DNA from: Alphaproteobacteria bacterium
GTDB taxonomy: Bacteria > Pseudomonadota > Alphaproteobacteria > Rhizobiales > Beijerinckiaceae
Assembly (NCBI GenBank): GCA_016869435.1
Contig: VGEB01000007.1
Coordinates: 1-56,998 of the forward strand
Direction: 5' to 3'
DNA: 56,998 nucleotides
Shown: in pieces, positions 26,962 through 39,803 of the stretch
Layout of the letters: every line of letters starts with the position of its first letter
How positions within the stretch are numbered: the first letter of the stretch is position 1
The notes under the pieces: generated by a model
Seen by the model: only the letters and a program-made list of their open reading frames with translations
Told to the model about the DNA's origin: nothing
The model's database searches: none
Made by a program: the position numbers and the translations under genes

Positions 26962-26990
26962 TTGACGCTTGTGCGGCGCAGCAATATAAA
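26962..26990 (+). promoter_or_regulatory. Near-consensus sigma-70 promoter of the small RNA
   Basis: TTGACG (26962-26967) and TATAAA (26985-26990) are separated by exactly 17 bases. This is the best sigma-70-type match I noticed in the window. Transcription would begin at about 26997. No reading frame follows. Confidence 0.75.
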
Positions 26991-27001
26991 AGTGCAGCGC
27001 A
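26972..27001. promoter_or_regulatory. Paired TGC-N3-GCA operator-like sites
   Basis: TGCGGCGCA (26972-26980, between the -35 and -10) and TGCAGCGCA (26993-27001, over the start site) are both flanked as GTGC...GCAG and are 21 bp apart, two helical turns. This resembles the CTGC-N3-GCAG site described for the polyhydroxyalkanoate regulator PhaR. The regulator assignment is inference. Confidence 0.5.
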
Positions 27002-27083
27002 GCGAGAATTTCTCGCTCCGTAGCCCTCCTTGGGCGTTTCCTCCCTTGACTTGGGCCGCTGGTTCGTCCGGCGGCCCTTTTTT
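26997..27083 (+). ncRNA. Small noncoding RNA, possibly AbcR/alpha-r15-like
   Basis: The predicted transcript is about 87 nt, from the promoter above to a clear intrinsic terminator. It has a 5' hairpin GCGAGA-ATT-TCTCGC (27002-27016) and two single-stranded anti-ribosome-binding-site stretches, CCCTCCTT (about 27024-27031) and TTTCCTCCC (27038-27046). The terminator hairpin is 27053-27077, followed by six T. No start codon with a useful frame is present. The TTTCCTCCC tract directly before a GGGCCGC terminator stem is, as I recall, the arrangement in the AbcR (alpha-r15) family of rhizobial Hfq-dependent RNAs that repress ABC-transporter mRNAs. That family assignment is from memory, not from a search. 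The T tract overlaps the cobB stop codon on the other strand. Confidence 0.65.
27053..27083 (+). terminator. Terminator of the small RNA
   Basis: GGGCCGCTGG (27053-27062) pairs with CCGGCGGCCC (27068-27077) around TTCGT, followed by six T (27078-27083). On the reverse strand the hairpin lies just after cobB but has no T run on that side. Confidence 0.85.
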
Positions 27084-28482
27084 ATGCCATTAGATGGAAA
27101 AAGGAGCCGGAAACGCCATTGCGCGTCAGTCCGGCTGGGCGCTCATCTTCGCTATAGGCGTCGCGCGCCAAGGCAAAGGCCGCACCTTCTTCGCGCAGAA
27201 CAGTCGCATAATGAAATTCATGCCCGCGCAGCGAAAATCCAGCGGCGCCGAGCGGATGATCCGCCGCCAATCTGACGCGGCGATAGCCGAGATGAAGCTT
27301 GCGCTTGGCGAAGCTCGTTTCCAATTCGAGCAGGCCGGCCATTTCATGCGAGTCGCCAGCGGCGTCGATCAGCGCGCGGCCGAGAACCATATAGCCGCCG
27401 CACTCGCCGTGAACCCATCGCTCCTTAGCGAAACGCCGCAGTCCGTCCATGAAGCCTCGCGCCGCCGACAACCGGCCGGCGTGCAACTCTGGATAGCCGC
27501 CGGGCAGCCAGCAGAGATCGCAATCGTCGGGCGGCGCCTCGTCGGCCAGCGGCGAGAAGAAGAAGAGTTCCGCGCCCGCGTCGCGCCAGCTCTGCGCGAG
27601 ATGCGGATAGAAGAAGGAAAAGGCGTCGTCGCGCGCAACTGCGATGCGCTGGGTAGGGGGCGAAATGGCCCCCACCCCAGCTCTCCCCCGCTTCGCGGGA
27701 GAGGGAGCAAGACGGCGCGCTTCATCAGCGTCACGCGAATCCGGCGTGAGCGTCCCCTCTCCCGCCGTCAGGCGGGGGAGGGACAGGGAGGGGGCGCTGC
27801 GCGCCGCCTCGATCATCGCATCCACATCCAGATGCGCGTCGATGAAATCGGCCAGGGCGTCGAGACGCGCATCGAGTCCCTCAGTTTCGCCGGCCTGCAC
27901 CAAGCCGAGATGGCGCTCGGGGAGCGTAATCGACCCGTCGCGGGGCAGCGCGCCGAGCACCGGGATTCCCAGCGCCTCGATTGCCTCGCCGGCGAGTCTG
28001 CGGTGACGCTCGGAGCCGACGCGGTTCAACACGACGCCAACGACTTTCACGCGCGCGTCATGCGCGGCGAGTCCGCGGACGATCGCTGCCGCCGTTTGTC
28101 CTTGACCGGAGACGTCATGAACGAGAATGACCGGCCAGCCGAGCATCGCGGCGATGTCGGCGCTGGCCCCGACGCCGGCCGCGCCGCCCGGCGCGCCGTC
28201 GAAGAGCCCCATGGCGCCTTCGGCAATGACGATGTCCGCGCCCGCGCTCGCCCGCGCCGCGAGATTCGCGATCAATTCCGCATCCATCGCCCATGAATCG
28301 AGATTGACGCCGTCGCGGCCCGTCGCCGCCGCGTGAAAGGCGGGATCGATATAGTCGGGCCCGCATTTGACCGGCGCGACGCGCAGGCCGCGCCTCGTTA
28401 GAGCGCGCATCAGCCCGAGCGTCAGCGTCGTCTTGCCGGAAGAGGAGCGGGCTGCGCCGATCAGCAGTCCCGGCGCGCTCAC
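27082..28482 (-). CDS. cobB: Cobyrinate a,c-diamide synthase (with in-frame repeat insertion)
   Basis: CobB amidates carboxylates a and c of hydrogenobyrinic acid using glutamine and ATP. The 466-residue product has an N-terminal dethiobiotin-synthetase-like ATPase domain ([18 protein letters not shown] at 11-28; [16 protein letters not shown] at 81-96). The C-terminal class I glutaminase domain has nucleophile Cys in [11 protein letters not shown], and GHEFHYAT near the end. It starts with GTG overlapping the cobM stop as GTGA. Residues about 231-278 are Pro/Arg/Ser-rich and encoded by palindromic DNA (27649-27792). They lie between the two domains, where an insertion would be tolerated. cobB is the last gene of the operon. 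Confidence 0.95.
27649..27792. repeat. Palindromic element inserted in frame in cobB
   Basis: This stretch contains a CTCTCCC...GGGAGAG hairpin (27681-27703) and CCTCTCCCGCC-GTCA-GGCGGGGGAGG (about 27756-27781). CCCCCACCCC on one side and AGGGAGGGGG on the other mirror each other as outer arms. Its composition and stem-loop design are those of intergenic repeats, yet it is read through as about 48 residues. Confidence 0.75.
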
Positions 28483-39581: not shown

Positions 39582-39599
39582 GCGATCGAAAACGATCGC
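39582..39599 (-). promoter_or_regulatory. Hairpin between riboswitch and cbtB
   Basis: GCGATCG-AAAA-CGATCGC is a perfect 7-bp stem between the B12 box and the cbtB start. It could be part of the expression platform that links the aptamer to translation or termination. It has no T tract. Confidence 0.45.
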
Positions 39600-39603
39600 G
39601 AAG

Positions 39604-39768
39604 ACGGCAGGTCTCCTGGCTCCCGGGTCGTCGGACGCGCCGCCTTCCCAAGCCTGACGCTCAGTGGCCGATGGCGCGGACCTTGCCGGCTACAGTTGCG
39701 GGGGCAGCCGCGGAAACGGACTAACGCCCGCGCCGCGTTCCCTTTTCACTTCTTGCGAAGGACCGTCC
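39604..39768 (-). promoter_or_regulatory. Cobalamin riboswitch
   Basis: Read on the reverse strand, all the standard aptamer blocks are present in order: AAAGGGAAC, GCTGCCCCCGCAACTGTA, GGCCACTGAG, GGGAAGGCGG, and the B12 box GAGCCAGGAGACCTGCC (39606-39622). It lies 65 bases ahead of cbtB and controls the whole cobalamin operon. Binding adenosylcobalamin should repress expression. The position of the promoter (below) predicts the 5' end at about 39768. Confidence 0.95.
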
Positions 39769-39774
39769 CGACTA

Positions 39775-39803
39775 GTCATATGCGCGGCTCATGCTTCCGT
39801 CAA
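39775..39803 (-). promoter_or_regulatory. Promoter of the cobalamin operon
   Basis: On the reverse strand TTGACG (39803-39798) and TATGAC (39780-39775) are spaced by 17 bases, putting initiation at about 39768, just ahead of the aptamer. It overlaps the alternative upstream start of cobO, which supports the shorter cobO. Confidence 0.65.

Follow-up and report, generated by a model that had tools for sequence, protein, structure and literature searches.

The window, that is the whole stretch of 56,998 nucleotides analysed here, derives from a genome of 3.16 Mb in 209 contigs, and the sRNA locus lies on contig G000:C7. It comprises a gene for an sRNA of ~85 nt (26999-27083, plus strand) and the convergent cobB gene (27082-28482, minus strand; Pfam GATase_3 and CbiA), with its stop codon at the end of the sRNA T tract. 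The sRNA gene is preceded by a sigma-70-type promoter (26962-26990, plus strand), composed of the -35 element TTGACG (26962-26967), a 17-bp spacer and the -10 element TATAAA (26985-26990), and closes with an intrinsic terminator (27053-27083, plus strand) formed by a 10-bp stem (27053-27077) and the stretch TTTTTT. A sigma-70 promoter scan of the locus returned 0 promoters, because its rule requires a T as the sixth -10 base, which TATAAA lacks. A preliminary description of this DNA had set the transcription start at 26997; alignment with the S. meliloti coordinates (PMC12542648, PMC7143759) would move it slightly, to ~26999, corresponding to an RNA of ~85 nt, and the predicted 5' end accordingly spans 26997-26999.

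A search of the Rfam models revealed a match to RF00519 at 27016-27091 with 68.8 bits (cut-off 41), covering model positions 1-77 of 77. RF00519 represents suhB/MmgR, a family named alpha-r8 in the papers on it. The predicted RNA (26997-27085) folds with -43.6 kcal/mol (z = -5.4), and equally stable structures were found for 0 of 200 shuffled sequences. Its MFE structure displays, on the plus strand, a 5' hairpin (26997-27021) whose first strand overlaps the right half of the second operator described below, a small hairpin GCCC-UCCUU-GGGC with an anti-Shine-Dalgarno loop (27023-27035), which is also part of the Rfam match, and the unpaired 10-mer UUUCCUCCCU (27037-27046), the pairing stretch of alpha-r8 RNAs. 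As alpha-r8 membership demands, this single-stranded 10-mer sits downstream of a weak hairpin, and the RNA ends in a rho-independent terminator (27053-27083). Judged by its sequence, the gene is a Methylocystis mmgR and encodes a trans-acting alpha-r8 RNA. The free-standing sRNA gene of the preliminary description is borne out; the near-consensus promoter TTGACG-N17-TATAAA is present as given, the strong terminator was recovered as a stem followed by six T, and the C/U-rich anti-Shine-Dalgarno tract was confirmed as well.

The same description had proposed to look for covariation in relatives, and the structure of the RNA does covary. We aligned 25 of the 30 high-scoring copies (60 bits or more) over 18 base pairs, of which 7 were changed on both sides; 96.4% of the cells were paired. 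The number of both-side-changed cells was 19 compared to a mean of 3.2 after shuffling, and 0 of 500 shuffles reached 19. Controls with slid partners gave at most 69% paired cells, a comparison that leans toward the structure, as these very sequences had served to derive it. In the helix of the 5' hairpin, both-side changes were present in 3 of 5 counted pairs somewhere among the 25 sequences, and the 10-mer is invariant in 25/25 copies.

The RNA had initially been likened to the AbcR/alpha-r15 family. AbcR1/2 are C/U-rich anti-Shine-Dalgarno sRNAs and resemble the present sRNA in this respect, and the preliminary description took the tract TTTCCTCCC in front of the terminator as a further resemblance. 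Against a transporter-repressing RNA of this type, an Rfam scan relaxed to E values of up to 10, whose library presumably includes an alpha-r15 model, returned RF00519 and no alpha-r15 match, and besides RF00519 nothing came close to its own cut-off. AbcR1/2 belong to a different RNA family; we rejected this identity and assign it next to no probability. Despite this evidence transporter targets are possible via alpha-r8: TonB receptors and other transporters are repressed by SisA, an alpha-r8 RNA of Caulobacter (PMC12559287), so that the suggested repression of transporters is plausible by this parallel, whereas the route through AbcR is not.

Two palindromes of the TGC-N3-GCA type overlap the promoter. 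Operator 1, TGCGGCGCA (26972-26980), is located between -35 and -10, and operator 2, TGCAGCGCA (26993-27001), covers the predicted start and belongs to a tandem pattern conserved in the order. Their starts are separated by 21 bp, and as predicted PhaR operators they should face about the same side of the helix. The PhaR consensus YGCRNYGCR from the literature (PMC12542648) is matched by the core of each site, in agreement with the PhaR-like double operator noted at the outset. Read against the AT-rich arms WNWDDN ... NHHWNW, each site fits in part; the left arm of operator 1 is partial, and a pattern with relaxed arms matches operator 2 and misses operator 1. The mmgR site published for S. meliloti, CAATTGTGCACCGCAGCATTA, occupies the same place as operator 1 and likewise breaks the first W of the arm (PMC12542648).

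The window contains 19 single TGC-N3-GCA sites where 22.8 are expected by chance, hence no enrichment. Pairs, in contrast, are unusual: across the 3.16 Mb, TGC-N3-GCA pairs with a gap of 8-16 bp occur at 6 places, and a search for the strict TGCRNYGCA pair, allowing gaps of at most 30 bp, gave 2 places. The reversed control pattern yielded 0 places in either search. The two strict tandem places are the sRNA promoter and the region 5' of two adjacent phasin genes (L034:552-1384, minus strand; Pfam Phasin_2). A third Phasin_2 gene (L190:632-970, minus strand; Pfam) has a single PhaR-type operator 5' of it; these three genes are those found at the loci concerned and do not represent a genome-wide count. 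The genome also encodes PhaR, with PF07879 and PF05233 in one reading frame of 215 aa. Predicted operators in front of both the sRNA and phasin genes are what is expected of a PHB regulon. A loose PhaR-like pattern with AT-rich arms matched 21 places in the genome compared to 10 for the reversed pattern. Few of these 21 places were tied to PHB genes: among the four loci with inspected ORFs, L190 has the phasin gene, and for those on C36, C2 and C68 no PHB gene was recognised by eye among ORFs of 150 aa or more. The motif alone is a weak predictor; the 21 versus 10 matches, together with the lack of enrichment in the window, mean that single sites need context.

Retrieval of homologous loci via the flanking YkuD gene yielded 80 named loci, 18 of which contain the exact sRNA core GCGTTTCCTCCCT within the stretch fetched. 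The YkuD proteins of these 18 loci are 68-85% identical (best segment); 14 of the loci are labelled Methylocystis or Methylosinus and 4 are Methylocystaceae or Alphaproteobacteria bins, and by this comparison the genome is Methylocystis-like. Loss of the operator pair in close relatives had been named beforehand as counter-evidence; inspection by eye instead showed both strict sites in 16/18 named loci, with a weaker second site, CGCAACGCA, in L047 and no second site in L061. Two loci, L010 and L016, have no start-site operator; both display an additional TGC-N3-GCA palindrome, located 30-31 bp further upstream than the spacer site, which may reflect a turnover that keeps two sites.

A survey of a sample of 397 genomes from the order detected a strict site at a distance of 40-68 bp ahead of the sRNA core in 179/397 genomes and 84/141 genera; some of these 179 matches correspond to the start-site operator, and two or more (G418, G033) look like chance. 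The tandem pair, with an allowed spacing of 17-25, precedes the core in 112/397 genomes and 49/141 genera, compared to 0/397 genomes for a control with a scrambled second site (YCGRNYCGR). Genomes lacking the sRNA count as misses in these numbers, and diverged sRNA copies are missed because the patterns demand the exact core. The 114 tandem places are spread over 23 families and show a spacing of 19 bp (13 places), 20 bp (22), 21 bp (67), 22 bp (11) or 23 bp (1). At the level of the class, with the core TTTCCTCCCT, the tandem pattern is rarer (21/385 genomes). Family f24, possibly Rhizobiaceae, has the single pattern in 16/20 genomes and the tandem pattern in 0/20. Based on the tandem survey (112/397), the counts for f24 and the one site given in PMC12542648, a single-site mmgR promoter of the S. 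meliloti type is probably not the typical state. A PhaR domain was found in 97/99 surveyed tandem genomes, the two exceptions being 82% and 85% complete, and also in 202/258 surveyed genomes without the tandem pattern, so that the association is partly phylogeny.

These distributions bear on what the palindromes are for. The second one could be conserved for the 5' hairpin of the RNA rather than for PhaR, in which case MmgR would be regulated from one site: its right half is part of the first strand of the covarying hairpin, and the published S. meliloti table gives one site (PMC12542648). However, its left half (26993-26995) is conserved as well, although it lies outside the transcript, being upstream of the predicted start. 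The spacing to operator 1 is 19-22 bp in 113/114 places, the scrambled second site is absent from all 397 genomes, and L004, L027 and L119 appear to retain site 2 without site 1, so we regard this explanation as unlikely. Alternatively, the operators might serve another repressor that binds TGC-N3-GCA, with PhaR being incidental. The AT-rich arms of S. meliloti are matched by operator 1 in part, which would suit such a repressor, yet this holds for the S. meliloti mmgR site too, and there the promoter binds PhaR and altered palindromes abolished the shifts (PMC12542648). The same strict pair in front of the phasin genes of this genome and the presence of PhaR in 97/99 tandem genomes also argue against another repressor, which we consider very improbable.

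The preferred reading, in which PhaR controls mmgR, builds on a published circuit. In S. meliloti, PhaR (AniA) represses mmgR (Ceizel Borella 2018, cited in PMC12542648), whose promoter is bound by the purified protein in EMSA (PMC12542648); the link between PhaR and the sRNA, described at first as unknown in the literature, had thus already been published for this species. PHB titrates PhaR, whereby phasin genes are derepressed, NtrC activates mmgR, and without MmgR phasins and PHB are higher (PMC12542648, PMC8401924); the effect on phasins is worded otherwise in PMC7143759 ('preserves synthesis'). According to PMC7143759 and PMC12559287, no direct mRNA target of MmgR was known. The 10-mer UUUCCUCCCU of Caulobacter SisA pairs just upstream of a start codon, as shown by compensatory mutation, and TonB receptors and other transporters make up a large share of the SisA targets (PMC12559287).

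Transferred to the present locus, PhaR, a repressor that binds PHB, would occupy both operators, in the promoter spacer and at the start site, when PHB is low, and would block transcription of the sRNA. Formation of PHB granules would titrate PhaR away, which would turn on the sRNA at the same time as the phasin genes with their operators of the same type. The sRNA would then pair through UUUCCUCCCU with Shine-Dalgarno regions and lower the translation of phasin and/or other carbon-related mRNAs, thus acting as a brake on the very PHB response that induces it. Beside the observed family membership, conserved operators, PhaR and phasin genes and RNA covariation, we infer repression, PHB titration and pairing from S. 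meliloti and Caulobacter. We give this explanation as a whole, from the two operators to the brake on phasin or carbon-related mRNAs, a probability of about 0.82. Phasin mRNAs did not stand out as partners of the sRNA: pairing of equal or greater strength was obtained for 25, 35 and 68 of 126 ORF starts, in a test with crude ORF calls, some overlapping loci counted twice and a background that includes the loose-motif loci.

Compared to S. meliloti MmgR, the RNA family, the 10-mer, the terminator and the PhaR site in the promoter spacer are shared. The S. meliloti RNA has 77 nt and one listed PhaR site (PMC12542648), whereas the RNA described here has ~85 nt and two predicted sites. An N-formylglutamate amidohydrolase gene, the usual though not defining neighbour of alpha-r8 genes, is not an immediate neighbour here; the YkuD gene and cobB take this place. 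With SisA-D of Caulobacter crescentus the RNA shares the single-stranded UUUCCUCCCU and its anti-Shine-Dalgarno character, and several copies per genome occur in many relatives here too. PMC12559287 found no motif common to the regions upstream of sisA-D, in contrast to the at least one PhaR-type site at 30/30 copies of 60 bits or more in our set. The phaP1 and phaP2 phasin promoters of S. meliloti also contain two palindromes each with the core YGCRNYGCR; there the pair flanks -35, whereas one sRNA operator is located in the spacer and the other covers the start site.

The RNA family, the link from PhaR to MmgR and the pairing mechanism are already in print. In the open-licence literature consulted we found no statement on mmgR of Methylocystis or on conservation of a second operator, which does not prove absence. 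What appears to be new is the order-wide comparison of the tandem pair, a modest addition in regulatory detail. The locus would place the PHB control of a Methylocystis relative in the published circuit, in which PhaR represses MmgR and MmgR restrains phasins, and suggests that two operators, not the single site of S. meliloti, are common across the order; cooperativity is therefore directly testable. Methylocystis is of interest for the production of PHB from methane, and an sRNA that may cap granules would therefore be a practical knock-out target.

Head-on to the sRNA gene, a cob gene cluster extends over ~39.3-27.1 kb on the minus strand. Upstream of cobB and on the same strand it encodes CbtA, CobW, CobN, a sulfite-reductase-like protein, CbiC and four tetrapyrrole methylases, and a cobalamin riboswitch (39589-39782; Rfam) lies just upstream of the cluster. 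The end of cobB is close to the sRNA in 16/18 named loci and in 8/17 further loci, including other families; L014 and L024, from the same genus, have no cobB end near the sRNA, and in L063-L065 it reaches into the terminator stem, the antisense of which encodes the end of cobB. A search of the minus strand from 27082 to 26300 revealed no intrinsic terminator, an arrangement that allows antisense read-through of cob transcripts over the sRNA. MmgR of Methylocystis and Methylosinus might accordingly receive a second input at the RNA level, beside the tandem PhaR array. When B12 is short, the putative read-through cob mRNA would carry an exact MmgR antisense and act as a sponge, similar to CrfA on SisA, so that B12 and PHB status would meet, while the tandem array would give a more switch-like control than the single-site S. 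meliloti promoter. We consider this extension highly doubtful.

RF00519 has several copies in many of these genomes. Of 41 genomes (the own genome and relatives), 37 have matches at E up to 0.001, 33 exceed the cut-off, and the largest number is six matches in one genome. The ~65 bp upstream were scanned for operators in 74 of 77 copies. Copies with 60 bits or more (n=30) have the pair in 21 cases and one site in 9, some of the latter from the same genus; copies with 41-60 bits (n=29) have 2 pairs, 5 single sites and 22 without a site, and those below 41 bits (n=15) 1 pair and 14 without a site. The scrambled motif was detected upstream of 0/74 copies. By these operator counts the main copy is the one predicted to be PhaR-linked, and most of its siblings have other promoters, as PMC12559287 likewise describes for SisA-D. 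An element at C83:3020-3087 was rejected as a second MmgR, as it has 33.5 bits, below the cut-off, and no PhaR site. This element (L002:1501-1568, equal to G000:C83:3020-3087) contains two C/U tracts and a terminator of its own; four relatives have similar copies (L154, L155, L156 and L158), and it may represent a separate sRNA family. In L122, L123, L126, L133 and L140, alpha-r8 paralogues that lack PhaR sites display a GAACA(C/A)AGTTT(T/C)GCCA(C/T)AG-like motif upstream. A further type of paralogue, with a shortened body and a single PhaR-type site near the promoter, is found in L124, L129, L141 and L144.
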